Source: a virus. Taken from it: a DNA stretch of 36,894 nucleotides. Below the pieces are notes generated by a model. It was not told where the DNA came from. It searched no databases and saw only the letters and a list, made by a program, of their open reading frames with translations. Positions 5,031-36,894 of this stretch are shown piece after piece; within the stretch, counting starts at the first letter, position 1, and each line of letters starts with the position of its first letter. The translations under genes were made by a program, and so were the position numbers. The stretch covers positions 1 to 36,894 of IMG/VR virus record IMGVR_UViG_3300028800_000209. One strand, given 5' to 3'.

Positions 5031-5043
5031 GTTAAGAAATTCT

Positions 5044-24945: not shown

Positions 24946-25566
24946 TTACGTGTTGATCGCCGTCGTGACCTTGGTCTCGACGTTGTTGAACGCCACGACC
25001 GCGTAGTCGTACGCGCCTGCCGCAGTTCCAGGGGCGCCCGGAGGGTCAGTGACCAAGCCGACGAGGCGCCATGGAAAGGCCGCCGTTACCGCTCCGGTGT
25101 GAAGCAGAAATGCTCCAGAGATGCCATTGGATGCGTTCCCCACTCCGATGTTGAAGTCGAAGTTCGCCCCGACATCAGCCTGGGCCACGCCGGTGGCATC
25201 GCCCTGCACGAGGAACTGCGCGGCCGGATCGTTGACCACGTACGCCTCGATCGTGGACTGGTTTCCGACCGTGACCGGCGAGCCGCCTGGCCAGAAGTTT
25301 GACCACACGGTGCGTCCGACCGCGGTCGACAGGTACTTGCAGCCAGCGAACACGCCGGCCATCGTGACCGTCGCGCCGCCAGCGGATCCGGCTGCCTGCT
25401 TGATGGTGCCGTCGCCAGTTCCAACACGAACAACCGGATCTCCGAAGTAGATCGCGGTGGCGTTGTAGTCGATGCCGCCGTTGCGGAAGCTCGTCAGTTC
25501 GTAGGTCGGCGAAGAGCCGGTTCCCTGGCGCTGAGCGAATCCGAAGGGAGCGTTGGAATTGGCCAT
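24946..25566 (-). CDS. Capsid decoration-like protein, first gene of the capsid cassette
   Basis: 206 residues, MANSNAPFGFAQRQGTGSSP. The start MANSNAPFGFxxxxG and the following YELTSFRNGGIDYNATAIYF and DPVVRVGTGDGTIKQ resemble small head proteins next to the capsid gene in several podoviruses. Many beta strands, no Cys-rich motif, one TVWSNFWPGG loop. It is transcribed from promoter A with a leader of about 92 bases whose Shine-Dalgarno is in a hairpin. It lies 18 bases upstream of the major capsid gene. I infer a decoration or head-stabilising protein. Confidence 0.75.
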   Translation of the reverse strand: MANSNAPFGFAQRQGTGSSPTYELTSFRNGGIDYNATAIYFGDPVVRVGTGDGTIKQAAGSAGGATVTMAGVFAGCKYLSTAVGRTVWSNFWPGGSPVTVGNQSTIEAYVVNDPAAQFLVQGDATGVAQADVGANFDFNIGVGNASNGISGAFLLHTGAVTAAFPWRLVGLVTDPPGAPGTAAGAYDYAVVAFNNVETKVTTAINT

Positions 25567-25644
25567 ACGAAGACACTCCTGCTGGAGGTCATCGCATGGC
25601 TGCCGGAGCTATCGAAGACCGAAAACTTTTTAATCAAGGGCCGC
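25564..25644 (-). promoter_or_regulatory. Structured 5' leader, copy A (SD hairpin plus ATG-CGA-TGA mini-ORF)
   Basis: Same conserved blocks as copy B (4896-4979), in the same order and spacing relative to the start codon. GACCTCC pairs with GGAG-T-GTC at 25572-25590 around loop AGCA, with one bulge. A two-codon mini-ORF, ATG-CGA-TGA, lies at 25589-25597. The GGAG is the only good Shine-Dalgarno for the gene at 25566, so folding should limit initiation. Confidence 0.7.
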
Positions 25645-25664
25645 GCCGAGCGGTCCATGGGCAA

Positions 25665-25693
25665 TTTATCCCACACAATTTCCGCGATGTCAA
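25665..25693 (-). promoter_or_regulatory. Sigma-70-like promoter A
   Basis: Perfect TTGACA -35 (25688-25693), 17-base spacer, GATAAA -10 (25665-25670). Start of RNA near 25658. It lies 11 bases downstream of the end of the terminator's T tract, so the capsid cassette is isolated from the upstream operon. Confidence 0.7.
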
Positions 25694-25703
25694 ATATCGG
25701 TCG

Positions 25704-25731
25704 AAAAAAAACCCGGCACTAGGCCGGGTTT
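25704..25731 (-). terminator. Intrinsic terminator before the capsid cassette
   Basis: On the transcript, AAACCCGGC pairs with GCCGGGTTT across loop CTAGT, followed by eight T. It lies 41 bases after the stop of the gene at 25773-26081. A textbook Rho-independent terminator. Confidence 0.85.
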
Positions 25732-25772
25732 GAGAAGCCGCGCAAGCCTGGGGGATTGCGCTGGCGGGGGAG

Positions 25773-26081
25773 CTACTTCGATGGTGCAGGAGCGTGCTTC
25801 ACTGGCTCGGTTTCGCCAGTCGCCACCGCCTTCTGATACGGCATCCATTCGGCATAATACCCGCCCTCAGGGGCGTCTTCCCCTTCCTGAACGAGCGGCA
25901 CATTTGCCATCGCAAAGCTTGCGCCATTGCCATCGAAGACCGCGAGATTCAGCTTCCCGTTCGGGAGCACATTCGCGATGACGGCCGCGCACACCGCATT
26001 CGGTTCGAAGGCCGGATGCGATGAGCTGTTAGACGGATGGAAATGCACCATCCTGGCGACGGTAGGAACAATGCTTGTCAT
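25773..26081 (-). CDS. Small unknown protein
   Basis: 102 residues from ATG 26081 (MTSIVPTVARMVHFHPSNSS), preceded by GAGG at good spacing. A GTG at 26087 adds two residues and overlaps the upstream stop, but has no room for a ribosome site. Sequence includes AVCAAVIANVLPNGKLNLAV, VFDGNGASFAMANVP and QEGEDAPEGGYYAEWMPYQK. The pattern (VHFxP, PxAAIVTxVxxxGxVxLxVFxxxG, W) resembles small phage proteins seen beside head genes, whose function is not established. It is the last gene before the intrinsic terminator. Confidence 0.65.
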   Translation of the reverse strand: MTSIVPTVARMVHFHPSNSSSHPAFEPNAVCAAVIANVLPNGKLNLAVFDGNGASFAMANVPLVQEGEDAPEGGYYAEWMPYQKAVATGETEPVKHAPAPSK

Positions 26082-26083
26082 GA

Positions 26084-26650
26084 TCACTCCCTCGGGATTG
26101 GAATAGATTCGAAGTTCTTCTTCACGCTCGCCATCGACTGGTCTTTGTTGCGACGCTCGAACTGGCCGTCAGGCGCTGCGCCGAGCTGCGCCTCTTTCGC
26201 CCGAACCTGATCGCGAGCGCGGCGATTGTCCATCGTTTTCACCTCGTCGGTGATTTCCTTCGGGCGCTCCATGAGGATCTGGCCATCACGAGTGATTGTC
26301 TCACCCTGATCGCTTTCCGGCATCATCTCCGGATGCCGCGATCTTGGAACCGCCTCCCATCCTCGATGCGCAAGCGACACCTGATACGATGGATTCTGCT
26401 TGCCAAGAATCTCGAATGCCTTCCACTCGTACGACCAGCCATCCGGAATGCTGCGCGGGTCGATGTAGAACTTGTCGGTGCTCTCCTCCATGCCACCAAG
26501 GTGATCGCGGAGTTCCGCGGCGCGGTGAGCGGCACGCGCTCTTGGGTCATCAGCAGCCGCTGCCTGGCCTTTGGAGACCGGTCCCGCAGCACCAGGAAGC
26601 GGCGCGTGCGGGACGTTGGTACGATTCGGAGTCTGTGCTTCAGTGGTCAT
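26084..26650 (-). CDS. Conserved-looking phage protein of unknown function
   Basis: 188 residues, MTTEAQTPNRTNVPHAPLPG. The first 60 residues are low complexity. Then comes DKFYIDPRSIPDGWSYEWK, a landmark of a family I have seen near capsid genes in many podoviruses, followed by NPSYQVSLAHRGWEAVPRSR, HPEMMPESDQGETITRDGQI and LMERPKEITDE. The C-terminus is a charged helix. It overlaps the scaffold-like gene upstream by ATGA. The function of the family is not known to me. A role in head assembly is suggested only by location. Confidence 0.65.
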   Translation of the reverse strand: MTTEAQTPNRTNVPHAPLPGAAGPVSKGQAAAADDPRARAAHRAAELRDHLGGMEESTDKFYIDPRSIPDGWSYEWKAFEILGKQNPSYQVSLAHRGWEAVPRSRHPEMMPESDQGETITRDGQILMERPKEITDEVKTMDNRRARDQVRAKEAQLGAAPDGQFERRNKDQSMASVKKNFESIPIPRE

Positions 26651-27588
26651 GACAATTTGCCCTCTTTCTTGAGCGCGACTTTGTTTTTCGCGTATTCCTC
26701 GACAGTCATGCCCATATTCTGGGCCATTTCGACTTCGGCTGGACTCAGCTTCACAACGTTGGTGCGGGACGCGCCGCCGCTGCGAGTGACCGGAGCCGCT
26801 GCTGGCGCCGCGCCACGCCCACCATTGGCAAGCTGCGCCGCATCCGCAGACGGATCAGGGTCGTCCGCGTGAGGCGCCACCAGCGTCGGAGCTGGACTCA
26901 GGTCAAGTGTTTTCTCGATCGACGCGAAGTAGGTGTCAGTGTCCGGTGTATGGCCGCGGGCGAGCGCGAGTTGATGCGCCGCGAGCATCTGCTGCTCTTT
27001 GTGTTGATCGAGCACGAATTCAGGGTGCGCGCGCACCCACGCGATGCTCCGGGGATATTCTTTCCCCATCGTGCTGACGTACTTCTCGACCGGATCAACC
27101 GGGGCGCGAGCGACTGGCGGCGGAGCGCGCTCGAGAGCGCTTTTCCCGGCCTCGAGTTGGGAAAGCTTCGACGAATTGTCCACCATCTGCCGCTGCACCT
27201 TCGCTGCGGCCTTGAAATCCTGCGCCGCTAGCGCTTCGGCGTACTGATCTTCCAGAACGTCGTTCGCCTGGCTGACTTGGGCGATTGCGCCCTTGATTTG
27301 CTCCAGTTGGGTCTTCTGGACGGTCCCACGGGCCTCTGCTTCGCCAGCAGCGGCATCTCGGGCGCGTGCTTCGGCCGCCGCGCGCGCCTCACGCTCGTCT
27401 TTGAGCTGTTTTTGAAGCTTTTCGATGCCTGCTTCGGTCGTAACTGGATCTTTGGCGGCCGTTTTCGCCGCTACATCCGGATCGACGACGACTGTCGACT
27501 CATGATCCGCGCCATTCGCGACCTTTTTCCCTGCTGCCGCGTCGAGCGCATCAACATCCAGGGTAATTTCGCCGTTTTCATCTGCCAT
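26647..27588 (-). CDS. Scaffold-like coiled-coil protein
   Basis: 313 residues, MADENGEITLDVDALDAAAG. Acidic N-terminus, then a long Ala/Glu/Arg coiled coil (about residues 50-155; AGIEKLQKQLKDEREARAAA is part). A Pro-rich hinge (APPPVARAPVDPVEKYVS), HPEFVLDQHKEQQMLAAHQL and TPDTDTYFASIEKTLDLSPA come next, and the C-terminus is basic (MGMTVEEYAKNKVALKKEGK). An acidic, helical protein ending in a basic helix just upstream of the capsid gene fits a scaffolding protein. The sequence alone cannot prove it. Confidence 0.7.
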   Translation of the reverse strand: MADENGEITLDVDALDAAAGKKVANGADHESTVVVDPDVAAKTAAKDPVTTEAGIEKLQKQLKDEREARAAAEARARDAAAGEAEARGTVQKTQLEQIKGAIAQVSQANDVLEDQYAEALAAQDFKAAAKVQRQMVDNSSKLSQLEAGKSALERAPPPVARAPVDPVEKYVSTMGKEYPRSIAWVRAHPEFVLDQHKEQQMLAAHQLALARGHTPDTDTYFASIEKTLDLSPAPTLVAPHADDPDPSADAAQLANGGRGAAPAAAPVTRSGGASRTNVVKLSPAEVEMAQNMGMTVEEYAKNKVALKKEGKLS

Positions 27589-27591
27589 AGA

Positions 27592-28035
27592 TCACCAGAT
27601 TACCTGTGGATTGGAGACGCGGAGCCGAATATGCTTGTCGCGGACGAGTCGGCACGGCACAAAGTCCTCGATTCGCAGCCCACTCGCGTTCCCGTTGATG
27701 TCGAGCGCCCAAGTATCGCTGGGACGCACGACAACCCAGTCGTGAAGCTTGATATCGAGACTGAATTTCATGCCATCGTACGGATTTTCCTGCTGGAAGT
27801 TGCAGGCTGCGCCGATTTTCACGACCAAAGCGACCTTCCCCTGATAGACATCCTCCTTCAGGGTCTGCGCTGCGAGGGCGATTCCTCCCGGAGTGGTGTC
27901 TGGACGCCGATAAATCGCCAGAAGCACCTCGTTCTGGGCGATTTCGATCTCTGCAATGTCACCAAGCTTCGCGAGAAGCTCCCGTTTTTCGTCGCGCTCT
28001 GACATGTTTTTGCGTTTCAGAACTTCGATCGCCAT
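27592..28035 (-). CDS. GroES-like (co-chaperonin-fold) head-region protein
   Basis: 147 residues, MAIEVLKRKNMSERDEKREL. Residues about 36-140 follow the GroES order: a first strand, EVLLAIYRRPDTTPGGIALA (which aligns with the mobile-loop region of GroES, ending GGIxL), then YQGKVALVVKIG, the FSLDIKLHDWVVVRPSD strand pair and the C-terminal strand ending in HIRLRV. GroES itself is about 97 residues. The extra N-terminal 35 are charged. The glycine pair and GKVxxVxxxG are the diagnostic landmarks. Location between portal and scaffold suggests a capsid-folding aid, like phage T4 gp31 in role. Confidence 0.65.
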   Translation of the reverse strand: MAIEVLKRKNMSERDEKRELLAKLGDIAEIEIAQNEVLLAIYRRPDTTPGGIALAAQTLKEDVYQGKVALVVKIGAACNFQQENPYDGMKFSLDIKLHDWVVVRPSDTWALDINGNASGLRIEDFVPCRLVRDKHIRLRVSNPQVIW

Positions 28036-28038
28036 GCA

Positions 28039-28230
28039 TCATCCCTCGTTGAGTTTTCTATTCACTTCTTCGCAGAACGTTTCTGCCACTTGCATGAGGG
28101 CAGTGATGCGCCCGACGTAATTCTGGTAGTGGGCGTAGTCCTTGACCGCCATTCCGGCCGCCAATTCACCGGTCAGGCGTTCCACTTCGGAAGCGATGAG
28201 CTTCTTGAGCTCGTGCTCGAAACGCGTCAT
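28039..28230 (-). CDS. Small helical unknown protein
   Basis: 63 residues from ATG 28230 (MTRFEHELKKLIASEVERLT), wholly helical and charged, ending FCEEVNRKLNEG. Its ATG overlaps the stop of the 334-residue gene (ATGA), which fixes the start. A longer frame reaching 28626 gives an Arg-rich shadow N-terminus and is not used. Function unknown. It could be a small assembly factor or dimerising partner for the GroES-like protein, whose ATG lies four bases downstream. Confidence 0.65.
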   Translation of the reverse strand: MTRFEHELKKLIASEVERLTGELAAGMAVKDYAHYQNYVGRITALMQVAETFCEEVNRKLNEG

Positions 28231-29231
28231 GCGCGCGCGGCGCGCGCGGCCTTGTCGAGTCTCGCGCGACCACCACCGCTGCCAGTCTCGATTGGATACG
28301 TGCGACCGCCGGCAGCACGCGGCATCAGTGGCGCGGCTGGTGGGATCCCGGCAGCTCCTGGCGGAGGCATCATCGCGCCCTGCGGAGGCATACCCTGCGC
28401 CATTCCAATCGGGCCACCTGGCGGCGGGCCGCCCGGAGGACGCATGCCCATCGGTGGCATCGGCGGCTTTGCCGGCGGCTGGATGATGTTGATATTGACC
28501 GTGGTGCCCTTCTTCGTGCGACCACCGGCCTTGCGCGCGAGACGCCCACCGACGGGACGCGTGCCTTCGTTGATCGCCGGGCCGCCGCGGGCGCGACCGA
28601 CGCGGCCACCGCCGCACTTCGCACACTGACAGTCGCTCACGTGACCGCCGTCCTTCCGCATTGGCCTGGACATGCCGCCCTGCGGAATCGTCGAGCGCTG
28701 CCCGAGCGCCATCCGCTGTTGGGGAGAAAGGGCGCCGCCGGCCATTTTCCCGGTGCGACCGCCGGACTTCATCCCCCCGTCGTGCTTGATGCCGTCGCGC
28801 TTCTGGTTGGCTTCCTTCACGTTCGTGTTTGCCAGCGAATCTGGAGTCAGCGCGGCGCCTCCGGAGGCAAAGCGTTGTTTGTTGCCATCTGACCGTGGAT
28901 CTGGGTATGGAGCAAAGCCTTTCTTGACCACACGCTGATTTTCTGCTTGCAGTTCCTTGAGTTCGTCTGCATTCAGAGGCTTGTTATGCGACCAATCTTT
29001 GGTCGCTCTCGGCTTCCGATCCGCCCGCTGGGGCGCCGCGCCGCCGGCAACTCCGCCGCCGCTGGCGTACTGGCGCCGAGAAATCACTCGAGGACCGGTC
29101 TGCACGTCGGCGTTCATGGCGCCCTCTGGCATGTAGCCAGACGCATCCACGCGCTGGCGCGGATCCGCACGCACGAGTCGTTCGGCCTTGGACTTTGCCT
29201 TGGAACGGGCCGCTTCTGACATCTTGCTCAT
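28227..29231 (-). CDS. Gly-rich protein with repeated GG motifs
   Basis: 334 residues, MSKMSEAARSKAKSKAERLV. It contains many copies of a short GG motif, including RRQYASGGGVAGG, RFASGGAAL, MKSGGRTGKMAGGAL, RARGGPAINEGTRPVGGRLA, KAGGRTKKGTTVNINII and RAAGGRTYPIETGSGGGRA. Residues 201-206 are CQCAKC, a possible metal site. A Met/Pro/Gly-rich tract (PPMPPMGMRPPGGPP) follows. Good GAGG site. The protein has no recognisable fold. GG-rich proteins of this kind are common beside portal genes in phages of GC-rich hosts. Function unknown. Packaging or internal-virion role is possible. Confidence 0.7.
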   Translation of the reverse strand: MSKMSEAARSKAKSKAERLVRADPRQRVDASGYMPEGAMNADVQTGPRVISRRQYASGGGVAGGAAPQRADRKPRATKDWSHNKPLNADELKELQAENQRVVKKGFAPYPDPRSDGNKQRFASGGAALTPDSLANTNVKEANQKRDGIKHDGGMKSGGRTGKMAGGALSPQQRMALGQRSTIPQGGMSRPMRKDGGHVSDCQCAKCGGGRVGRARGGPAINEGTRPVGGRLARKAGGRTKKGTTVNINIIQPPAKPPMPPMGMRPPGGPPPGGPIGMAQGMPPQGAMMPPPGAAGIPPAAPLMPRAAGGRTYPIETGSGGGRARLDKAARAARA

Positions 29232-29238
29232 GGGTGCC

Positions 29239-29520
29239 TCACGGAGTCGATTGCGCCGAGTGTACGTCGGTCGACGGCAGGGTGCAATTTGGGATCAGGT
29301 ATGAGACGTCAGCCCCATCCTCGAAGCAGGCTTTCGCGAACGTGGCTTCCTTGCGCACGCTCAGCGTCATGGCGTACTGGCAGGCTAGGTCATACTGGTC
29401 GCTCTGAAAGTCTTTGACATGCTCCCAGCAATCTTCCTCGTATGGTCTGTACCCCCTCCATCTCTGCACTGAGAAATAGTCGCGATCAGTGCCAATGATA
29501 TGGGCCACCCGCACCCTCAT
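29239..29520 (-). CDS. Small unknown protein downstream of portal
   Basis: 93 residues from ATG 29520 (MRVRVAHIIGTDRDYFSVQR), with an ATGA overlap with the portal stop that fixes this start. It contains WRGYRPYEEDCWEHVKDFQS and DQYDLACQYAMTLSVRKEAT, and three Cys near conserved-looking aromatic residues. I do not recognise the family. Because it is coupled to the portal, a head-assembly role is possible. Confidence 0.6.
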   Translation of the reverse strand: MRVRVAHIIGTDRDYFSVQRWRGYRPYEEDCWEHVKDFQSDQYDLACQYAMTLSVRKEATFAKACFEDGADVSYLIPNCTLPSTDVHSAQSTP

Positions 29521-31868
29521 TCCCGCCTCCCGATCCACTTTCCGATCTGCCCCATGATTCCAACCGCGCGCTTCCCGGCGCTAGCGGCATCCTTCGGCTC
29601 CTGAATGACTTCCTTCGCCAGCCCGATCGCGGCGTCTTCCTGACGGGCTTCGCGGTCCTGGTCGCGGTTCTGGTCGTTGACGACGAGTTCTCGCGCCTTC
29701 AGCCCCACATCCGCACGACGGGTGTGCGCATCCATAATCTTCGCCTGGGCCGTAGCGACGTCAAGGGACGTCTCTTTGGACTCCGGAGCCGACGCCCCTT
29801 CGTGCTTCGGCTCGAAGTGGCCCATGGCGATCTTCGCATTCACCTCGTCGGCACGCGCCTCGGCGACCTTGGCCTGTGCCTGAGATGTCGCGACCTTCGC
29901 ATCCGCGACCTTCGTCTTGTCGTCCATCTCCCGCTGCATCTGCAAGAGCTGCGGCGGCGGCTGCGCGCGAGCCGATGGCGGCACGAAGAATTCCTCTGGG
30001 TTCGACCAGCCCATCGCGGCGAGCGCCGCAGTATGGATCTTGATCGGATCGTACAGCGCAGGAGCCTTGTCCTGCAGCTGCATCAGCCCCATGATTTTCA
30101 TCATGCGTTGGCCGGCAGAGGACGTGTTCGGGTCGGCTTGCGGCACGAGTGAGCAGTTGTCGATGGCCATCAGAAACTTCTGCTTATCCCACGTCGTCTT
30201 CGATTTGCAGCCGCTCTCGAAGAAAGTCTCAGGGTTCTCCTTGATCACCTGCTTCAGGAGTTGGAATTCCTCCGCCTGCGCGCTATGCATGCGCTTATGG
30301 ACGGCGTTCATGACCTTGATGGCCTGGTCGATCATCGCCATCACGGTGCCGACTGGCACGTCCGCGCGACCCTCACCAACCTGGACCTCAGCAGTGCCGC
30401 CGATGCGCCGACCGGTCTCGGCCATGTTCTCGACCAACTGCATCAGGGCCGCCATGCCCTGGGTCGAATACGGAAGCGGCATCACCGCGTCTTTGATTGG
30501 TACCCCGTTGGTCTTGACCGATGCTCCGCCGCCTGGCGGCACACGGAAGATGTTCGTGTTCTGCCGGCCGCCATTGTCGGCCATCAGGTAGCCTGGGAAG
30601 TTCGCGAACATTCCGCAGTCAAGCATCTCGCGCCATGCCGCGGTCACGGCATTCGTCGTGTTTCCAAGGATGTGAAGGAGCCCGATATCGTAGAACCCGA
30701 GCCCTGGAATGAACGGCCACTTCACGAACCGTTTGCGAGCCACAGGCAGCGGAGCATCGTCCTTTCCGTAGTTGCGAACGACAGAAAGCGTTTCTCGCGA
30801 TGACGTATCGATCGTGACTACGTAAGGAACCGCCAGTCCGCTGTCCTTGCCATGGTGCTTGTGCTCGAAACCAACGATATCCAACTCGCAGTAAATCTCG
30901 TAGATTTCGCGTTCGCGATCCTGCGGGCGCCCCGTGGTATTGACACTGATTCCCTGCTGCGCGCGCTTTTCGTCCTCCAGCGCGTCGGTCGTCGGTGCCT
31001 TCGCGTCAGTGAGCGATATATCGCGGTAAATTCCCAGAATCTGCATGCGCCGTACCGTCGACGGTTTCATCATCGAGCGGTGCGTGACGCGCTGGGCGTT
31101 CGTCAGGTCTGTTGCCGACTGATTGACGATCAGATCCTCGGCATCGACTGATTCCGATACCGCGCGATTCCGCAGTGGGCACTTGTAGACCTTCTTGAAT
31201 CCGTCACCTCCGAACCCAGCCATGAGCAGCATGCGGTCTGTGTCCGGGTAGTACTCTGAGGCCCTCGTCGTCAGGTAATGATTCATGTCCATTTCGAGCG
31301 CCGAGGCCAACTCGTCGCTCAGCACGTTGGCGGACGTGGAATCATTCCTGATCTTCACTGGCCCATCTGTGGGCAGGAACTCGCTGCGGGCGTTCGCATT
31401 GAAACGCACCACGGCCTCGAGCAATAGCGGATGCCGAACCTTGCTCATTCCTTCGACGGGCGCGCCGTCGGCGGCGCCTTGAACATTCGGAAGTTCGATC
31501 TTGAGTCCGAGCAGCTTGATGCCCTGCGCGCGGTCGTCTATCCAATCCTGGCGGGAGGTAAGGTCTTCCTCGACTCCGCGCAGGAGATCGTCAGTGATAC
31601 GGGATAGTTCTGCGGCGTCGATTTTGTCCGCAAGGTTGTCGAACCATTCGATGGGTTTCTCTGGCTTCGGCTCGTTCAGCGGCTTGCCGTCCAGGGATAC
31701 GGTGATCGAGCCGTCGGCATGCTCGATGCGTACGACATTGTCGTTGTCATCGATGACCGGAGCATCCTCTCCGGCATCGACATGAACCTCTATGTTGGCC
31801 GGAGGGGGCATCCCAGGTTCCGGATCTGGAACCAGGCGCAGATTCGTGTTTGGGGCTAAGCCGGGCAC
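29517..31868 (-). CDS. Portal protein, P22-like
   Basis: 783 residues from GTG 31868 (MPGLAPNTNLRLVPDPEPGM) with GAGGGA upstream. Key parts are LLRGVEEDLTSRQDWIDDRA, GMSKVRHPLLLEAVVRFNAN (wing), EYYPDTDRMLLMAGFGGDGF and KKVYKCPL in the clip and stem region, FVKWPFIPGLGFYDIGLLHI with LGNTTNAVTAAWREMLDCGM, and VGEGRADVPVGTVMAMIDQA in the central helix. Length and order match P22-type portals (about 725 residues). The C-terminal third is an acidic coiled coil (KVADAKVATSQAQAKVAEAR), as in P22 barrels. It links DNA entry by the terminase to the neck proteins. Confidence 0.85.
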   Translation of the reverse strand: MPGLAPNTNLRLVPDPEPGMPPPANIEVHVDAGEDAPVIDDNDNVVRIEHADGSITVSLDGKPLNEPKPEKPIEWFDNLADKIDAAELSRITDDLLRGVEEDLTSRQDWIDDRAQGIKLLGLKIELPNVQGAADGAPVEGMSKVRHPLLLEAVVRFNANARSEFLPTDGPVKIRNDSTSANVLSDELASALEMDMNHYLTTRASEYYPDTDRMLLMAGFGGDGFKKVYKCPLRNRAVSESVDAEDLIVNQSATDLTNAQRVTHRSMMKPSTVRRMQILGIYRDISLTDAKAPTTDALEDEKRAQQGISVNTTGRPQDREREIYEIYCELDIVGFEHKHHGKDSGLAVPYVVTIDTSSRETLSVVRNYGKDDAPLPVARKRFVKWPFIPGLGFYDIGLLHILGNTTNAVTAAWREMLDCGMFANFPGYLMADNGGRQNTNIFRVPPGGGASVKTNGVPIKDAVMPLPYSTQGMAALMQLVENMAETGRRIGGTAEVQVGEGRADVPVGTVMAMIDQAIKVMNAVHKRMHSAQAEEFQLLKQVIKENPETFFESGCKSKTTWDKQKFLMAIDNCSLVPQADPNTSSAGQRMMKIMGLMQLQDKAPALYDPIKIHTAALAAMGWSNPEEFFVPPSARAQPPPQLLQMQREMDDKTKVADAKVATSQAQAKVAEARADEVNAKIAMGHFEPKHEGASAPESKETSLDVATAQAKIMDAHTRRADVGLKARELVVNDQNRDQDREARQEDAAIGLAKEVIQEPKDAASAGKRAVGIMGQIGKWIGRRE

Positions 31869-32137
31869 TTGAACAGTCCCTCATCCCGCGAACAGATCGC
31901 CGGGTCTGCTATCGGGCCGGTGCGTGCGATGATCTTCATGCCGGCGATCTGCGATCCTTCCTTGAAACCTTTGGATTCGAACACGCGCAGTGTCGCGCCA
32001 TTCACATGAATGCAGGTCGGGGGCTGCCCGCAAAGGTTCTCATACGCCGTGCGCGCTTCGATGACGCGCCGAATAAAGTCGATGTGCGGCGTCGATTCCA
32101 TATTCGGCGGCGTCAGGACTGACGAAGGCGCGCTCAC
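31856..32137 (-). CDS. Small unknown protein upstream of portal
   Basis: 93 residues from GTG 32137 (MSAPSSVLTPPNMESTPHID), with a GTGA overlap to the preceding stop. Residues 20-80 include HIDFIRRVIEARTAYENLCG, QPPTCIHVNGATLRVFESKG and GSQIAGMKIIARTGPIAD. It overlaps the portal start by 13 bases. No family recognised. Possibly a small cofactor of terminase or portal. Confidence 0.6.
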   Translation of the reverse strand: MSAPSSVLTPPNMESTPHIDFIRRVIEARTAYENLCGQPPTCIHVNGATLRVFESKGFKEGSQIAGMKIIARTGPIADPAICSRDEGLFKCPA

Positions 32138-32391
32138 TGCAGCTTCGCCTTCGGCGCCAGCGTCGCCATTTCCGCTCGAATGATCGGGTTCATGCAGCTC
32201 TTCACGAACAACTCCAATCCCTTCATGGCCGCACTGTCATCGGATTCCGCGGCGATAGTGTAAACCTGCCTCCAGTTGTGAGGGAACTGGCCGCTAACCG
32301 TCACGCGAAACAGGTATGGACGCTGGACGCGCGAGATCAGATCGACGATTGCCGTGCAGCGCGGAGTGGCGGTTTCAGGCGTCAGGATCAT
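32134..32391 (-). CDS. Small unknown protein after terminase
   Basis: 85 residues from ATG 32391 (MILTPETATPRCTAIVDLIS), continuing VQRPYLFRVTVSGQFPHNWR and VYTIAAESDDSAAMKGLELF to PKAKLQ. The order resembles a small beta-alpha protein. The longer TTG frame to 32493 contains an alternative small frame ending at this ATG (see the 30-residue peptide). No family recognised. Located between terminase and portal. Confidence 0.6.
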   Translation of the reverse strand: MILTPETATPRCTAIVDLISRVQRPYLFRVTVSGQFPHNWRQVYTIAAESDDSAAMKGLELFVKSCMNPIIRAEMATLAPKAKLQ

Positions 32392-32480
32392 GGCTTGCGA
32401 CTTTCTCTGCGCGACGCGCGGAAACGACGGACGGAGTCGTATGTAATCCACGCAGCTAGGGCCAGGAAACTCCAACTCAC
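32388..32480 (-). CDS. Possible 30-residue single-pass membrane peptide
   Basis: A GTG at 32480 starts MSWSFLALAAWITYDS followed by a strongly basic tail (VRRFRASRRESRKP). AGGAG lies five bases before it, overlapping the terminase stop region, and the stop TGA overlaps the next gene's ATG (ATGA), the same coupling seen across this window. The Trp-flanked hydrophobic segment of about 12-14 residues followed by positive charges suggests an inside-positive membrane anchor. It is very short, and the alternative TTG frame covers the same bases. Function unknown. Confidence 0.45.
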   Translation of the reverse strand: MSWSFLALAAWITYDSVRRFRASRRESRKP

Positions 32481-32489
32481 GACAGCTCC

Positions 32490-34118
32490 TCAAACCGGAT
32501 ACAGCGGCTGCTCCCTGCCAACATACGCCTTTTCCTGTTCAATTTCAGCTTCCCGTTCCGGCTGGCGCACCAGAAGCCCCATATCGCGCAGCTTCCGCAG
32601 GGCGCCGGATGTGCAGTCCACGTACTCGTCGTGCTTCCCCTTCGGGAACTGGCCGACCTGCTTCATGACCGCCTCCATCCAGAGCGTGTCAGGGCCGTGG
32701 ATGATGCCCTCGGCGAATATGTGCTGGACGCTGTAGAGCCTAGAGGTCTTGTCCTGGCTCTTCGGATCGCACAATTCCACGCCGAAACGCTCGCGACTGT
32801 ACAGGCGCCTGATTTCCTGCGCCACACTGATGCCGGACGCCTTGTTCTCGATCACCAGATTGTCGACCTTCCACTTGACGCAGGTCGAAACGGACTTTTC
32901 GACCAACTCGTGGAACTCCAGACGCTCGGTCCATGCGTACATGCACATGACCTTTGGTGCGAATTCCGAGAAGGTGGGATTTAGCCGGATTGGCTCGCCG
33001 TCAGGCCCCATAATCAGCGTCGCGTGCGCCTGCACATCGCCCGAGAAGATCCCCCAGATGATCATGCCGGACGGGTCGTTCATCGTGTCTTCGGTGTACG
33101 CCGTATCGAGCCACGCCAACACGTAATCCATCGGCGGAAACCGGTCTTTGTCCCAGAGCTTCCACCACTCGCGCTTGATTATCCCGCCGCCCTTCGGCTC
33201 TGGGCGCTGCTGAATCTGGCCGGCGAAGATGAACGGCCCCATGGTGCGCTCAAGGCCCTTGAGAGCGGCCTCGCTGAAACGCTCAGGCCAAAGCAGCTCG
33301 CCAGGCTCCGTCCGCGGATCCTTCCAGCCGATAACGGTGTGCAAAGACCGCTCCGGTTCGTATCGTCCGGGAAGGCAAAGATGCGTCCAACCATCGGCCT
33401 CCTTCTCCAGAATGTGCCCCGTCAGATCGTCTTCGGCCAGCCGCTGCTGGATGATGATCCAGGCGCCAGTTTCAAGATCGTTGACACGTGTCGGCATCGT
33501 GGTCTGCCACCAATCGATGACCTCGAGCATGCTGGCTTCGCTGGCGACATCGTTCGCCGCGTTCGGGTCGTCGATGATGATGATATTGCCGCCCTCTCCG
33601 GTAACCCCGGCTCCGATGGAGGTGATCAGGCGCTCGCCGCCTTTATCGTTGGCAAATCGGCTCTTCGTGTTCTGATCCGACGTCAGCTGAAACCTATGCC
33701 CCCACCGCGCCTGATACCACGGGGATTCGATCAGGCGGCGACATTTCACTGAATCACGTAGAGAAAGCTTGTCTGCGTAGGAGGCATGCAGCATCGGGAC
33801 GCCGGGGCCAGATGTCGGGGTATTGATTGGCTGCGCCCATACCCAGGCGGGAAACGCGACCGATACCGTGTCAGATTTACCGATGCGAGGAGGACAATTG
33901 ATGATCAGCTTCTTGATCTGCCCGTCGACGACGGCCTGCAGATGCTCGCAAATCGCATCGACACACCACCCGTCCTTCCACTGCGCAGGATCTATGTATT
34001 TCCATGCAGACTTCAGGAAAAGATAGAGCGATTCCTCGCATTCCGCACGATCAATGTCGAGCAATTGCAGCTTTGCATCGACAGAGTTCGGATCGAAAGA
34101 AGCGAGATTGAACGCCAT
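32490..34118 (-). CDS. Terminase large subunit
   Basis: 542 residues from ATG 34118 (MAFNLASFDPNSVDAKLQLL). ATPase part: Walker A CPPRIGKSD at about 75-83 and Walker B NIIIIDDPNAAND at about 178-190. Nuclease part: LAWLDTAYTED (first acidic site), DNLVIENKASGIS (second) and HDEYVDCTSGALRKL (third), as in RNase H-type terminase nucleases. It pumps and cuts DNA at the portal. No small terminase subunit is visible nearby. A TTG at 34154 adds 12 residues, would begin two bases after the CCA end of the tRNA-Gln gene, and has no ribosome site. The ATG has none either, so the start is uncertain. Confidence 0.9.
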   Translation of the reverse strand: MAFNLASFDPNSVDAKLQLLDIDRAECEESLYLFLKSAWKYIDPAQWKDGWCVDAICEHLQAVVDGQIKKLIINCPPRIGKSDTVSVAFPAWVWAQPINTPTSGPGVPMLHASYADKLSLRDSVKCRRLIESPWYQARWGHRFQLTSDQNTKSRFANDKGGERLITSIGAGVTGEGGNIIIIDDPNAANDVASEASMLEVIDWWQTTMPTRVNDLETGAWIIIQQRLAEDDLTGHILEKEADGWTHLCLPGRYEPERSLHTVIGWKDPRTEPGELLWPERFSEAALKGLERTMGPFIFAGQIQQRPEPKGGGIIKREWWKLWDKDRFPPMDYVLAWLDTAYTEDTMNDPSGMIIWGIFSGDVQAHATLIMGPDGEPIRLNPTFSEFAPKVMCMYAWTERLEFHELVEKSVSTCVKWKVDNLVIENKASGISVAQEIRRLYSRERFGVELCDPKSQDKTSRLYSVQHIFAEGIIHGPDTLWMEAVMKQVGQFPKGKHDEYVDCTSGALRKLRDMGLLVRQPEREAEIEQEKAYVGREQPLYPV

Positions 34119-34155
34119 CGCTACAGAGTAGCGGGCAGCCTCATCGATGGTCAAA

Positions 34156-34229
34156 TGGATCAGGGACTAGGACTTGCACCTAGATAGCGGGCTTCAAAGG
34201 CTCGCGTCCTGCTGTTAGACGATCCCTGA
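34156..34229 (-). tRNA. tRNA-Gln (TTG)
   Basis: TCAGGGA/TCCCTGA acceptor, loop CTTTGAA, encoded CCA. T-loop TGCAAGT with G at 55 and D-loop AGC in place of the usual GG. It ends two bases before a possible TTG start of terminase. Confidence 0.85.
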
Positions 34230-34230
34230 A

Positions 34231-34306
34231 TGGTTCAGGCGGCACGAGTCGGACGTGCGTGGCCGTGGTTCAGAGCCACGATGGGATACCGGCAACCCAC
34301 ACCTGA
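34231..34306 (-). tRNA. tRNA-Gln (CTG)
   Basis: Acceptor TCAGGTG/CGCCTGA, anticodon loop CTCTGAA with a strong CGTGG/CCACG stem, encoded CCA. The D-loop keeps GG. One-base gap to the previous tRNA. Confidence 0.85.
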
Positions 34307-34314
34307 GCTGAGAT

Positions 34315-34386
34315 TGGCGGGCTGTCGAGGTGTCGATCCTCGCACGGCAAGATTTGGAGGCTCGCCTGTTCGCTGGAACCCAACCC
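34315..34386 (-). tRNA. tRNA-Trp (CCA)
   Basis: Loop CTCCAAA is typical of tryptophan, with G73 and CCA. The D-arm is unusually small (GTTC-CAGC-GAAC), base 7 and the 31-39 pair are mismatched, and the total length is only 72. Possibly degenerate. Confidence 0.75.
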
Positions 34387-34391
34387 GTAAA

Positions 34392-34480
34392 TGGCGGAGA
34401 GCACATCGCACGATGACGATACCCGTGAGGGTACAGCGCGCTTTCCAGGCGGCTCCAGCACCCCGGCTGGTTTACTCTCC
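34392..34480 (-). tRNA. tRNA-Ser (GGA)
   Basis: Long variable arm (TACCC-TCAC-GGGTA), loop CTGGAAA, G73 and CCA. Anticodon- and T-stems have mismatches, T-loop ATCGTGC. First of four consecutive serine tRNAs. Confidence 0.75.
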
Positions 34481-34484
34481 AGAT

Positions 34485-34574
34485 TGGCGGAAGGCAGTGA
34501 ATTTGCGTCACATACCCGTCAAGGTACGACCTGTTTTCGAGGCAGGCGCAGCGCGCTTGTCTGCTTTACCTTCC
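34485..34574 (-). tRNA. tRNA-Ser (CGA)
   Basis: GGAAGGT/ACCTTCC-like acceptor (GCCTTCC at the 3' side), long variable arm, loop CTCGAAA, CCA. T-loop CGCAAAT (G55) with D-loop AAGCG. Confidence 0.85.
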
Positions 34575-34578
34575 AATG

Positions 34579-34669
34579 TGGCGGACAGCGGTCGGGCACG
34601 ATCCACAAACCCGGTAAGGGTTCCACCCGGCTTCAAACCGGAGGCGTGCGCCTGCACGCTTCACTGTCC
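34579..34669 (-). tRNA. tRNA-Ser (TGA)
   Basis: Loop TTTGAAG on a perfect TCCGG/CCGGG stem, long variable arm (AACCC-TTAC-CGGGTT), CCA. The D-arm is a strong GCGTGC/GCACGC hairpin and the T-stem is weak. Confidence 0.8.
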
Positions 34670-34674
34670 AAAAG

Positions 34675-34762
34675 TGGCGGAGAGCTGTGATCCTGCCTCA
34701 CAAACCCGTGAGGGTTCGCTTCGTTTAGCAAACGAGCCAGGGCCTCGCCCAGTTAACTCTCC
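34675..34762 (-). tRNA. tRNA-Ser (GCT)
   Basis: GGAGAGT/GCTCTCC acceptor, loop TTGCTAA, long variable arm, T-arm TGTGA/TCACA, CCA. It completes a set reading all six serine codons. Confidence 0.85.
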
Positions 34763-34766
34763 AAAT

Positions 34767-34843
34767 TGGTGGATCGCCAGGGCATCGAACCCCGATCTCT
34801 GCGCTTAAAAGGCGTGACTTTAGCCAGGTTAAGTTAGCGATCC
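34767..34843 (-). tRNA. tRNA-Lys (TTT)
   Basis: GGATCGC/GCGATCC acceptor, lysine-type loop CTTTTAA, T-loop TTCGATG, A73 and CCA. Three-base-pair anticodon stem with two outer mismatches. Confidence 0.85.
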
Positions 34844-34847
34844 AAAC

Positions 34848-34923
34848 TGGAGCCCCACGCCTGAGTTGCACAGGCCACCTCCTGGGTACGAATCAGGCGC
34901 TCCGCTGTCAGAGCTTGAAGGGC
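34848..34923 (-). tRNA. tRNA-Thr (CGT)
   Basis: Loop TTCGTAC, D-arm GCTC/GAGC with loop TGACAGCG, T-loop TGCAACT (G55), CCA. First of three consecutive threonine tRNAs. Confidence 0.85.
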
Positions 34924-34928
34924 AAAAC

Positions 34929-35003
34929 TGGAGCCTCGTCAGCGACTCGAGCGCTGTTCTGCCCGGTACAAGCGGGCTGCATCACCGTCAATGCTTACGG
35001 GGC
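34929..35003 (-). tRNA. tRNA-Thr (TGT)
   Basis: Loop CTTGTAC on a perfect GCCCG/CGGGC stem, D-loop TGACGGTG with the normal GG, T-loop CTCGAGT with the normal T55. CCA encoded. Confidence 0.85.
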
Positions 35004-35006
35004 AAT

Positions 35007-35082
35007 TGGAGCCTCACCAGGGATTTGCGCCCTGCACCTCGAACTTACCAAGTTCGCGTTCCGCTGTCAGAACTTGAGAGGC
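35007..35082 (-). tRNA. tRNA-Thr (GGT)
   Basis: Loop TTGGTAA on CGAAC/GTTCG, D-loop TGACAGCG, T-loop CGCAAAT (G55). CCA encoded. Its body resembles the CGT threonine tRNA. Confidence 0.85.
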
Positions 35083-35087
35083 ATGAT

Positions 35088-35162
35088 TGGCACCCAGGAT
35101 GCGAATCGAACGCATGCTGCCGCGCTTCGGAGGCGCAGTGCCGGAAGTCCACCGGCCTGGAT
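35088..35162 (-). tRNA. tRNA-Arg (CCG)
   Basis: Acceptor ATCCAGG/CCTGGGT, loop CTCCGAA on a GCGC stem, T-arm ATGCG/CGCAT with TTCGATT. CCA encoded. Confidence 0.85.
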
Positions 35163-35165
35163 AGT

Positions 35166-35260
35166 TGGTTGCCCGTCAGGGTGTCGAGCCCTGCCGTCGC
35201 CGCTAATCTGGCAGCTCTCCGCGCTTTATAAGGGCGCGCCGCACGCCGGTGCTACGGGCA
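35166..35260 (-). tRNA. Long-variable-arm tRNA with UAU loop (isotype uncertain)
   Basis: Perfect TGCCCGT/ACGGGCA acceptor, T-arm CAGGG/CCCTG, CCA, and a 26-base variable arm. The anticodon stem CGCGC/GCGCG closes a nine-base loop CCTTATAAA centred on TAT. TAT reads AUA (Ile), but long arms belong to Leu, Ser and Tyr. The D-arm is very short (GCAC-CGGC-GTGC). Confidence 0.7.
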
Positions 35261-35262
35261 AA

Positions 35263-35338
35263 TGGCACGCATGGTAGGAGTCGAGCCTACGCGATCAACG
35301 TTCGTAGCGTTGTCCCCGAATTCCCTCGGGCCATGCGC
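35263..35338 (-). tRNA. tRNA-Arg (ACG)
   Basis: Loop CTACGAA on a perfect CAACG/CGTTG stem, T-arm GTAGG/CCTAC, CCA. A34 would need deamination to inosine to read all of CGU, CGC and CGA. Confidence 0.85.
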
Positions 35339-35343
35339 ATGGA

Positions 35344-35415
35344 TGGTAGCGAGCTCCGGGGTCGCACCGGACGCGCTGAGCTTATGAGACTCTGCTGATC
35401 ACTGGATCGCTCGCA
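35344..35415 (-). tRNA. tRNA-Met-type (CAT)
   Basis: Loop CTCATAA, A73, CCA. Position 1-72 is an unpaired T-T, as initiators have an unpaired first pair, but the anticodon stem lacks the three G:C pairs of initiators. Initiator, elongator or Ile2 cannot be separated. Confidence 0.75.
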
Positions 35416-35421
35416 ACTGTT

Positions 35422-35497
35422 TGGTGTCTCCCCTCCGTTACGCTCGGAGCCCTCGTCCTCTTCAGGGACACGCTTCCACTAGGTTAGCTTGAGAGAC
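35422..35497 (-). tRNA. tRNA-Phe (GAA)
   Basis: GTCTCTC/GGGAGAC acceptor, loop CTGAAGA on TGTCC/GGACG, A73 and CCA. T-loop AGCGTAA is atypical. Confidence 0.85.
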
Positions 35498-35501
35498 GAA
35501 T

Positions 35502-35577
35502 TGGTGCGCTCAACTGGATTCGAACCAGTAGCTTTCAGGTTCTCAGCCTGTTGCGTATGCCGTTCCGCCATGAGCGC
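35502..35577 (-). tRNA. tRNA-Leu (GAG), short variable arm
   Basis: GCGCTCA/TGAGCGC acceptor, A73, CCA, loop CTGAGAA. The D-arm TGGCGGAACGGCATACGC is leucine-like, but the variable loop is only about five bases, whereas bacterial leucine tRNAs usually have a long arm. Confidence 0.8.
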
Positions 35578-35582
35578 GTAAG

Positions 35583-35660
35583 TGGTACCGCTGCTGGGAT
35601 TCGAACCCAGAACCGAATCGCTCTTGAGGCGAACGCATCTGCCGATTGTGCTACAGCGGT
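35583..35660 (-). tRNA. tRNA-Leu (CAA), short variable arm
   Basis: ACCGCTG/CAGCGGT acceptor, A73, CCA, loop CTCAAGA on TCGC/GCGA. The variable loop is about six bases. Confidence 0.8.
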
Positions 35661-35661
35661 A

Positions 35662-35732
35662 TGGTCTCCCCGAGACGATTCGAACGTCCGATGCGGTCGA
35701 TAGGAGCGACTGCTGTGTCCACCACCGAGGAG
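35662..35732 (-). tRNA. tRNA-Arg (CCT)
   Basis: CTCCTCG/CGGGGAG acceptor, loop CTCCTAT on GTCG/CGAC, T-loop TTCGAAT, CCA. Only 71 bases, with a small D-arm. Confidence 0.8.
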
Positions 35733-35733
35733 C

Positions 35734-35805
35734 TGGCGCGCAGAGAAGGATTCGAACCTTCAATCGTCGGTTTAGAAGGCCGTCTACCGGTCCATCGGTC
35801 TGCGC
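35734..35805 (-). tRNA. tRNA-Arg (TCT)
   Basis: GCGCAGA/TCTGCGC acceptor, loop CTTCTAA, T-arm GAAGG/CCTTC with TTCGAAT, G73 and CCA. One-base gap to the previous tRNA. Confidence 0.85.
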
Positions 35806-35808
35806 ATC

Positions 35809-35879
35809 TGGAGCGGGCGAACGGAGTCGAACCGTCCCATGCCTCTTTGGCAAAGATGCCGCGCACCATGCGCGCCCGC
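35809..35879 (-). tRNA. tRNA-Gly (GCC)
   Basis: GCGGGCG/CGCCCGC acceptor, loop TTGCCAA, T-arm GACGG/CCGTT, U73 and CCA. Confidence 0.85.
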
Positions 35880-35883
35880 GTGT

Positions 35884-35957
35884 TGGTACCTCGTGATGGA
35901 CTTGAACCACCATACGTCGCTAATCGGGCGACAGTCCTGCCGTTGAACGAACGAGGC
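35884..35957 (-). tRNA. tRNA-Ile (GAT) with C33
   Basis: Loop CCGATTA on a perfect GTCGC/GCGAC stem, giving anticodon GAT but C instead of the near-universal U at 33. T-arm GGTGG-TTCAAGT is isoleucine-like, A73, CCA. Confidence 0.75.
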
Positions 35958-35963
35958 ATTGAT

Positions 35964-36038
35964 TGGTCAGAGTGGCAAGACTCGAACTTGCATGGACATG
36001 CTCCCAAGGCACGTGGTCAACCTTTGACCCACACTCTG
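35964..36038 (-). tRNA. tRNA-Pro (TGG)
   Basis: CAGAGTG/CACTCTG acceptor with the proline-type C1-G72 pair, loop CTTGGGA, T-arm GCAAG/CTTGC, A73, CCA. Confidence 0.85.
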
Positions 36039-36043
36039 AATGT

Positions 36044-36118
36044 TGGAGATTCGTGCTGGGGTCTCACCAGCCTGAAACGGTTTTGCAGACCGCTGCCTGG
36101 ATGCTCGGCCAACGAATC
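36044..36118 (-). tRNA. tRNA-Cys (GCA)
   Basis: GATTCGT/ACGAATC acceptor, loop CTGCAAA, U73 as expected for cysteine, T-arm GCTGG/CCAGC with loop TGAGACC. CCA encoded. Confidence 0.85.
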
Positions 36119-36122
36119 AAAA

Positions 36123-36198
36123 TGGGGTGATGGGTTGGGCTTGCACCAACTAACAGGAGTTTCACAGACTCCGGCCTATCTGCTTCGGCTTCCACCAC
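36123..36198 (-). tRNA. tRNA-His (GTG)
   Basis: GTGGTGG/CCATCAC acceptor, loop CTGTGAA on GGAGT/ACTCC, C73, CCA. The base before G1 is T, so the usual encoded G-1 is absent. Confidence 0.85.
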
Positions 36199-36202
36199 AA
36201 GT

Positions 36203-36278
36203 TGGTACCCTTCCCCGGATTCGAACCGGGACTGACATGCTCCTAAGGCAAGTGCCTCTGCCGTTGGGCTAGAAGGGC
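36203..36278 (-). tRNA. tRNA-Leu (TAG), short variable arm
   Basis: GCCCTTC/GAAGGGT acceptor, loop CTTAGGA, T-arm CCCGG/CCGGG, A73, CCA. The variable loop is about five bases, like the other two leucine tRNAs. Confidence 0.8.
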
Positions 36279-36285
36279 GATGAAA

Positions 36286-36359
36286 TGGCGTTCCGTATGG
36301 GTGTCGATCCCATCACGACGGATTGAAAGTCCGCCTGCTTCGCCGGCTGCTCACGGAAC
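36286..36359 (-). tRNA. tRNA-Glu (TTC)
   Basis: GTTCCGT/ACGGAAC acceptor, loop CTTTCAA on CGGA/TCCG, G73 as for glutamate, CCA. T-loop ATCGACA is shared with the Trp tRNA. Confidence 0.85.
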
Positions 36360-36364
36360 ATTGA

Positions 36365-36425
36365 TCGATCGCGGCTCCGGAACCAAACCGGATTTAATCC
36401 CCATAACTCTGGGCACCGCATGCGA
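36365..36425 (-). pseudogene. Short tRNA-like remnant
   Basis: 61 bases between two tRNAs. A perfect T-arm-like hairpin (TCCGG-TTTGGTT-CCGGA) and one other arm with a GTT-containing loop are visible, but there is no D-arm, only four acceptor pairs and CGA in place of CCA. A decayed tRNA is likeliest. Confidence 0.4.
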
Positions 36426-36502
36426 TGGAGAACGGCGCGGGGCTTGCACCCGCTAAGATCAGGTTGAGAACCTGAGCGCTCGGCTACTTTGCATTGCCGT
36501 TC
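36426..36502 (-). tRNA. tRNA-Glu (CTC)
   Basis: GAACGGC/GCCGTTC acceptor, loop TTCTCAA on TCAGG/CCTGA, T-loop TGCAAGC (G55) with D-loop AGC. CCA encoded. U73 is atypical for glutamate. Confidence 0.8.
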
Positions 36503-36505
36503 AAT

Positions 36506-36577
36506 TGGTGGACCGGTAGGGAGTTGAACCCTCGGAGCTATCTTGCAAGGATCGCCCGCAGCCCGCTGCACTGGCCC
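36506..36577 (-). tRNA. tRNA-Ala (TGC)
   Basis: GGGCCAG/CCGGTCC acceptor with a mismatch at 6, loop CTTGCAA, A73, CCA. The anticodon stem has one mismatch. Confidence 0.8.
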
Positions 36578-36581
36578 GTAT

Positions 36582-36631
36582 TGGTGGACCGTCTCGTGGC
36601 CCCTACGTCACCGCCAACATGGACGGCAGAA
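36582..36631 (-). pseudogene. Truncated tRNA-like fragment
   Basis: About 50 bases that repeat the 3' end of the neighbouring Ala tRNA (GGTCCACCA preceded by CGAGAC) but lack a 5' acceptor strand and D-arm. A CCGTC/GGCGG hairpin with a GTT-containing loop is present. Probably a partial duplicate. Confidence 0.4.
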
Positions 36632-36632
36632 T

Positions 36633-36711
36633 TGGTACCGCTACCAGGATTTGAACCTGGACCTCGCTGCTTAAGAGGCAGGACTCTGTACCGGACTTGA
36701 GTTATAGCGGT
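36633..36711 (-). tRNA. tRNA-Lys (CTT)
   Basis: ACCGCTA/TAGCGGT acceptor, loop CTCTTAA on CTGC/GCAG, T-arm CCAGG/CCTGG, D-loop with GG, A73, CCA. Confidence 0.85.
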
Positions 36712-36712
36712 A

Positions 36713-36798
36713 TGGTGCGTCGTCAAGGAATCGAACCTTGCGGATCGTTAGATAACCGGGTTACAGCCGGCGCCTTCTCCATAGAGGTCTAACAACGC
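36713..36798 (-). tRNA. tRNA-Tyr (GTA)
   Basis: GCGTTGT/ACGACGC acceptor, loop CTGTAAC on GCCGG/CCGGT, medium-long variable arm, T-arm CAAGG/CCTTG, A73, CCA. Confidence 0.85.
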
Positions 36799-36804
36799 AA
36801 TGAA

Positions 36805-36881
36805 TGGTGCCCAGTGCAAGGTGAGTGCTTGCGACCTTCGCTTTGTAGGAGCGTTGCTCTTCACGTCTGAGCTAACCGGGC
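36805..36881 (-). tRNA. tRNA-Val (TAC) with C33
   Basis: GCCCGGT/ACTGGGC acceptor, T-arm GCAAG/CTTGC, A73, CCA. Stem CGCT/AGCG closes loop CCTACAA, so C replaces U33 as in the Ile tRNA. T-loop CACTCAC. Confidence 0.75.
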
Positions 36882-36885
36882 AAAT

Positions 36886-36894
36886 TGGCGGTCC
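36886..36894 (-). tRNA. Partial tRNA at window edge
   Basis: Only the 3' end (GGACC, then G and CCA) is inside the window. It shows that the array continues to the right. Confidence 0.5.

Follow-up and report, generated by a model that had tools for sequence, protein, structure and literature searches.

Short-arm leucine tRNAs and a putative two-headed tRNA-Ile(UAU) in a phage tRNA array

Bacterial leucine tRNAs are normally class II. How should one read, then, a viral tRNA array in which leucine anticodons sit on short-arm tRNAs, while a tRNA with the anticodon UAU has a long one? The question is raised by a fragmentary IMG/VR virus record of 36,894 bp, here referred to in its entirety as the window, which carries all of its recognisable genes, including those for the portal, the major head protein and the large terminase, on the minus strand. 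The tRNA array (34156-36894, minus strand) is located directly upstream of the large terminase gene (34154-32490, minus strand; PHROGs) and extends beyond the end of the record. Reading this strand by eye, together with an enumeration of cloverleafs, yielded about 33 tRNA genes or remnants, most of them with an encoded CCA; ARAGORN reports 17 tRNA genes in the window, and the 95-nt UAU gene is not among them. Since many of the array tRNAs lack U8 or T54-T55-C56, about half of them are missed by annotation programs. A preliminary description of this locus had proposed that either recognition by LeuRS is relaxed, or charging differs from the anticodon.

The genes for tRNA-Leu(GAG) (35502-35577), tRNA-Leu(CAA) (35583-35660) and tRNA-Leu(TAG) (36203-36278), all on the minus strand, are class I, with variable loops of 5, 6 and 5 nt, respectively, which agrees with the five to six bases first described; the long variable arm that is usual in bacterial tRNA-Leu is absent from all three. 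Each has A73, an encoded CCA and a 7-bp acceptor stem, and their Rfam scores are 63.7, 51.6 and 50.2 bits. Leucine identity in E. coli is made up of A73, the A15-U48 pair, G18G19, A20a and contacts between the D- and T-loops, and tRNA-Leu from which the long arm has been cut away is still active, the arm being dispensable for E. coli LeuRS (PMC9976931). We scored 11 identity and elbow positions, covering A73, A15-U48, G18G19 and A20a as well as U8, A14, T54, T55, C56 and A58. All 11 are present in the three leucine genes, confirming that they keep A73 and a leucine-type D-arm, and elsewhere in the window only in the ordinary tRNA-Ile(GAT) (35884-35957, minus strand), while most other array tRNAs reach 2 to 7. 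Furthermore, CTC, CTA and TTG sites in window proteins align with leucine in homologues. With the full E. coli determinant set in place and the arm dispensable, neither a relaxed LeuRS nor charging at odds with the anticodon is necessary for these tRNAs. The plain conclusion from their sequences is that they are, in all probability, real leucine tRNAs, which the host LeuRS would charge with leucine by way of A73, A15-U48, A20a and the D/T elbow.

Relatives of the window were sought via its terminase and portal, which led to a single syntenic tRNA array, that of contig L003; portal relatives mostly carry few tRNAs or none. The L003 terminase is 84% identical to that of the window, and the L003 array has no UAU gene. 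There, the slot of Leu TAG is occupied by a class II tRNA-Leu(CAG), which indicates that presence of the arm is exchangeable. BLAST of window positions 24000-36894 against named phages gave no match, and the Leu GAG tRNA gave partial matches to other tRNAs only.

Short arms on leucine tRNAs are also found beyond the window. A pattern for leucine NAG anticodon loops together with variable loops of 5 nt, leaving position 73 unspecified, matched at least 120 IMG/VR stretches. Among the matches listed, 117 of the 119 that were folded are clean class I cloverleafs, with A73 in all, and the 109 distinct viral genes of class I with a NAG anticodon likewise all have A73. Moreover, in at least 178 distinct class I Leu genes found by ARAGORN in the same contigs, A15-U48, A20a, A73 and G18G19 occur jointly in 92%, as compared with 48% of Ala tRNAs and 26% or less of any further isotype in these contigs. 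Contigs selected for a tRNA-Asn gave 41 classified Leu tRNAs, of which 8 are class I and 30 class II. Named phages have such genes as well: in the cultured E. coli K-12 phage 4MG, a tRNA-Leu(TAG) of class I (KF550303:60431-60504) goes under the plain annotation tRNA-Leu. Short-arm tRNA-Leu is a widespread and little noticed variant in phages, with an ordinary explanation for its charging, and it contradicts the textbook rule on bacterial leucine tRNAs. We found no report of it in the open-access literature searched, and a description elsewhere is possible.

These phage genes share A73, A15-U48, G18G19, A20a, the leucine-type D-arm and the leucine anticodons with bacterial class II tRNA-Leu, but differ in their variable loop of 4-6 nt. 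Animal mitochondrial tRNA-Leu also does without the long arm, its identity residing mainly in A73 and A14 (PMC9976931); these are otherwise reduced tRNAs, served by an organelle LeuRS. Septu and retron-Eco7 cut tRNA-Tyr in its variable arm, and a phage tRNA-Tyr that resists retron-Eco7 has, like the present genes, a variable arm unlike the host form, although this resistance has been demonstrated for tRNA-Tyr alone (PMC13096335). By analogy, loss of the arm in tRNA-Leu may perhaps be an escape from nucleases that cut there. Class I tRNA-Leu(TAG) was also seen in many bacterial assemblies (L158-L276), including Acidobacteriota, Variovorax, cyanobacteria and Planctomycetota, often in tRNA-dense stretches and at times solitary; about a dozen Acidobacteriota contigs share a near-identical gene.

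The UAU tRNA (35166-35260, minus strand) is 95 nt long including its CCA, with a 7-bp acceptor stem and A73. Its variable region in the cloverleaf measures 26-27 nt, so that the 26-base variable arm and TAT-centred loop initially described for this 95-base tRNA are upheld. Its minimum-energy fold comprises five arms, namely the acceptor, a mini D-arm, the UAU arm, a second hairpin and the T-arm. What we call the first head is the 5-bp anticodon arm (35220-35238, anticodon TAT at 35230-35228). The second head is the variable-region hairpin GCTGC-CAGATTA-GCGGC (35199-35215), which in the RNA (GCUGC-CAGAUUA-GCGGC) has the size of an anticodon arm, with 5 bp and a 7-nt loop, and is centred on the pseudo-anticodon GAU (GAT at 35208-35206). 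This loop resembles CCGATTA, the anticodon loop of the window's own tRNA-Ile(GAT), whose form the second head imitates. The T-arm (35177-35193) starts 5 nt past the second head, a distance such as class I variable loops span. For comparison, tRNA-Tyr(GTA) (36713-36798, minus strand) has a long variable arm of the normal kind.

In the window copy, U8 is missing, the D-loop is 4 nt long and the T-loop is a non-canonical CUCGACA; many array tRNAs are non-canonical as well. This copy has a mini D-arm in common with the members in L115 and L127. It has 4 of the 11 leucine positions, A15-U48, A20a, U8 and A14 being among those missing. We considered a mutated class II tRNA-Leu(UAA), which was dropped on account of this absent leucine set. 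Of the features of tRNA-Ile, it has A73, and GAU solely in the second head; the CAU that makes a TilS substrate for lysidine modification is absent, the anticodon being TAT. A covariance model built from other records only places 35260-35166 at the top of the window, with 47.7 bits against 44.9 bits for Leu TAG, a margin that is small because every tRNA partly matches the model.

An unbiased sample is given by Leu- or Asn-anchored viral contigs and Leu-anchored bacterial contigs, all of which had been fetched for other reasons. ARAGORN found 25 long TAT tRNAs in it, along with 21 short-arm UAU tRNAs without a second head. GAT is present in all 21 distinct variable regions scored from the long-arm UAU tRNAs, and 20 of these 21 have a 7-nt GAT-centred loop closed by at least 3 bp, as opposed to 0 of 377 distinct variable regions of Ser, Tyr, Leu and other long-arm tRNAs (Fisher 8e-33, for sequences that are related and hence not independent). 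At 80% identity, the 24 unbiased genes form 16 clusters, and across an alignment of 25 long-arm UAU genes the GAT columns are invariant, as is the T-loop core. One member, in L251, has the second-head loop CTGATAA, which is the anticodon loop of E. coli tRNA-Ile1. Including targeted sets, at least 89 distinct UAU/GAU members were scored (35 clusters at 80% identity), with A73, the discriminator matching isoleucine, in 87; because the targeted sets were picked by loop sequence, the 21 unbiased arms are the fair test for isoleucine.

The second stem varies in sequence, and compensatory two-sided changes occur at all three core pairs; 121 of 136 cells are paired, compared with 71 +/- 5 in shuffles (maximum 87). 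When the 25 aligned genes were folded with RNAalifold, the first anticodon stem did not appear, one subfamily being shifted in register; it is plain to see in the cloverleafs of the single genes. In a held-out search, the genes of Vibrio phage Thalassa (MG649967:78904-78996) and Acinetobacter phage vB_AbaS_qsb1 scored 77 and 88 bits with the covariance model, and other tRNAs at most 45 bits; both are cultured phages with named GenBank records, in which the two-headed gene is annotated as tRNA-Ile. The GAU-centred long arm is thus not leucine-like, and the window gene belongs to a widespread phage family. In most second heads U33 is missing and position 37 is variable, whereas the UAU loop is canonical. 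The reverse assignment, with the GAU hairpin as the true anticodon arm and UAU as an insert, is disfavoured in view of the missing U33 and the canonical UAU loop.

A parallel family came to light in L309 (5558-5653), where a tRNA with the anticodon UCA, which reads UGA, has the variable arm CCUGU-GUCCAAA-GCAGG and G73. Its second loop copies the anticodon loop of tRNA-Trp and is centred on CCA. Scanning for this UCA/CCA arrangement returned 44 good genes, 37 of them distinct, in 25 clusters (for instance in L537, L606, L499 and L544), with the variable-arm loop [CGT]TCCAAA. This set was selected on the loop sequence, the unbiased cases amounting to one, and the window contains no such tRNA. 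Determinants of bacterial tRNA-Trp include G73, the anticodon and the acceptor pairs A1-U72 and G5-C68 (PMC9976931). The search pattern had left position 73 free, and G73 is nevertheless present in 37 of the 37 distinct genes, 26 of which have A1-U72 and 27 G5-C68. Here too the second stem covaries, with 119 of 128 cells paired, compared with 74 +/- 4 in shuffles. The second head of either family shows the normal anticodon for its amino acid, from which the first head departs at the wobble base.

UGA appears to be read as tryptophan in part of the UCA/CCA carriers. When TGA was taken as sense, ORF coverage rose by more than 0.15 in 17 of 41 UCA/CCA loci, compared with 8 of 60 controls (p = 0.002). 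In L544 the coverage went from 0.52 to 0.96, and two in-frame TGA codons, in its ribonucleotide reductase (RNR) and a DnaB-like helicase, correspond to W292 (vs 5im3) and W339 (vs 8due), respectively, both tryptophans of solved homologues; at the remaining TGA positions aligned for the RNR, the homologues listed have residues other than tryptophan.

What could a second anticodon-like arm be for? Position 34 is among the anticodon bases that bacterial IleRS reads. In its unmodified form, with C34, tRNA-Ile2 is not charged by IleRS (PMC11938285), and in Mycoplasma mobile the use of a UAU tRNA is accompanied by mutations in IleRS (PMC4014445). On these grounds the phage UAU tRNA is expected to be a poor substrate for an ordinary IleRS. 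We propose that its first head reads AUA at the ribosome, and that the second head, with its loop C-A-GAU-W-A, would show host IleRS the GAU signal that UAU lacks, possibly by being placed in the anticodon-binding site of the enzyme. The phage would in this way gain a tRNA-Ile for AUA that does not depend on TilS and lysidine. The combination of UCA, a CCA arm and G73 may be the equivalent trick for UGA and TrpRS. Since most second heads lack U33, their own decoding should be poor, and with GAU in the extra arm and the leucine set absent, isoleucine is the likely charge of the UAU tRNA. For the window as a whole, we consider it quite likely that LeuRS-charged short-arm leucine tRNAs occur together with a UAU tRNA that has one head for decoding and a second as an identity signal for IleRS, as paralleled by the tryptophan family. 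More generally, these phages probably separate decoding from synthetase recognition on two anticodon arms, UAU/GAU serving isoleucine at AUA and UCA/CCA serving tryptophan at UGA.

At 11 ATA sites of the window with homologues that use a different codon, the homologues have isoleucine 45, valine 22 and leucine 13 times, and the substitution profile of ATA resembles those of ATC and ATT, unlike the CTN codons. Because the AUA-reading tRNA of the host can serve ATA codons as well, this isoleucine profile opposes a leucine misreader, without proving a role for the second head. Of the earlier suggestion that the UAU tRNA is charged at variance with its anticodon, the discord between anticodon and arm stands; the absent leucine set, the GAU in the arm and the mostly isoleucine ATA sites speak against the remainder. 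The amino acid that this tRNA decodes is probably standard, and the apparent novelty lies in the charging route.

One alternative is a leucine misreader, in which the long-arm UAU tRNA carries leucine (or serine or tyrosine) and misinserts it at AUA, like the nematode nev-tRNA-Ile(UAU). The class II shape and A73 would suit this, and the nematode nev-tRNA(UAU), which shares the long variable arm and the anticodon with the phage tRNA, was found to accept leucine in vitro (PMC4300185). The tRNAs of the phage family, on the other hand, differ from it in their GAU pseudo-anticodon, which a misreader leaves unexplained, and in the missing A15-U48, A20a, U8 and A14. As ATA sites align with isoleucine, and the parallel family fits tryptophan and not leucine, serine or tyrosine, we regard misinsertion as very unlikely. 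Neither do we give much credit to the view that the odd tRNAs are decaying or chimeric, the short-arm leucine genes being Pro- or Lys-like tRNAs with altered anticodons and the UAU arm a chance insertion. While U8 or T54-T55 is missing in many array tRNAs, ARAGORN overlooks the UAU gene, and the anticodon arm of Leu TAG is similar to that of Pro TGG, the leucine genes rank among the most canonical of the array and clean short-arm counterparts are common in phages. Moreover, the UAU gene has both hairpins, the acceptor, the T-stem, A73 and CCA intact, and its arm is conserved in other phages, which makes decay highly improbable.

A second head that serves another purpose, with the UAU tRNA charged differently, would have to be a decoy for anticodon nucleases, a contact for phage proteins or modification enzymes, or a loop-loop partner of the anticodon loop. 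Phage tRNAs do interact with tRNA-cutting defences, some of which cut the variable loop (PMC13096335), and the occurrence of short-arm UAU tRNAs without a second head, which implies that it is not always needed, fits such a purpose as well. However, in two isotypes the conserved triplet is exactly the anticodon of the cognate amino acid and the discriminators match it, and kissing between the two loops is rejected, as their complementarity is not conserved among loop variants. We therefore hold a function outside charging to be unlikely, and prefer the second head as a signal to IleRS or TrpRS. With regard to origin, a recent duplication of the anticodon arm was rejected, since within a single Trp-type tRNA the heads resemble each other no more than heads taken from different tRNAs do.

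The comparative support for the two-headed tRNA is strong, and it would appear to be a new architecture, with a mechanism that we infer. The phage tRNA shares the assignment of AUA to isoleucine with tRNA-Ile2 (CAU, lysidine) and with the tRNA-Ile(UAU) of Mycoplasma mobile and lactic acid bacteria. These need either a modification of C34 or an IleRS that has adapted (PMC11938285, PMC4014445), whereas the phage tRNA apparently supplies its own recognition arm. On E. coli ribosomes, a tRNA-Ile with unmodified U34 lacked selectivity for AUA (PMC4014445). In recoded phages and bacteria, UGA suppressor tRNA-Trp(UCA) likewise has UCA and G73, with UGA apparently meaning tryptophan in some carriers, but a second arm with a CCA loop is undescribed in the open-access literature searched, in which we found no precedent for two-headed tRNAs of either kind; they may have been described elsewhere. 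If the proposed mechanism is true, these tRNAs are a natural exception to the rule that ribosome and synthetase use one and the same anticodon, and explain how AUA can be read without lysidine and how some phages gained a UGA-reading tRNA-Trp. Host synthetases would then aminoacylate tRNAs that they would turn down on account of the decoding anticodon. This would also open a way to recode stop codons, and suggests that codons could be reassigned without engineering of synthetases.

Long-arm forms of the normally short-arm Met, Gly, Pro, Lys, Thr and Cys tRNAs were also encountered (L277, L283, L295, L366 and others), several with GNRA-like loops in the variable arm, and phage 4MG has a long tRNA-Asn and tRNA-Lys. 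Among long-arm Lys, Asn, Thr, Cys and Met tRNAs, no variable-arm loop holds the anticodon of the tRNA's own isotype. In L003, positions 3091-3177 combine the Asn anticodon GTT with a Ser-like body, a 17-nt variable arm and G73, and short ORFs resembling HNH-type endonuclease genes sit between the tRNAs at 2640-5230; the window array has no such ORFs. Two stretches of the window array (36362-36425 and 36585-36632, minus strand) resemble tRNA remnants, neither forming a full cloverleaf and the former being without a terminal CCA. Finally, among the structural genes, positions 12864-15659 (minus strand) of the window encode a 931-aa protein with a Zeta-toxin-like kinase domain and a NUDIX domain.
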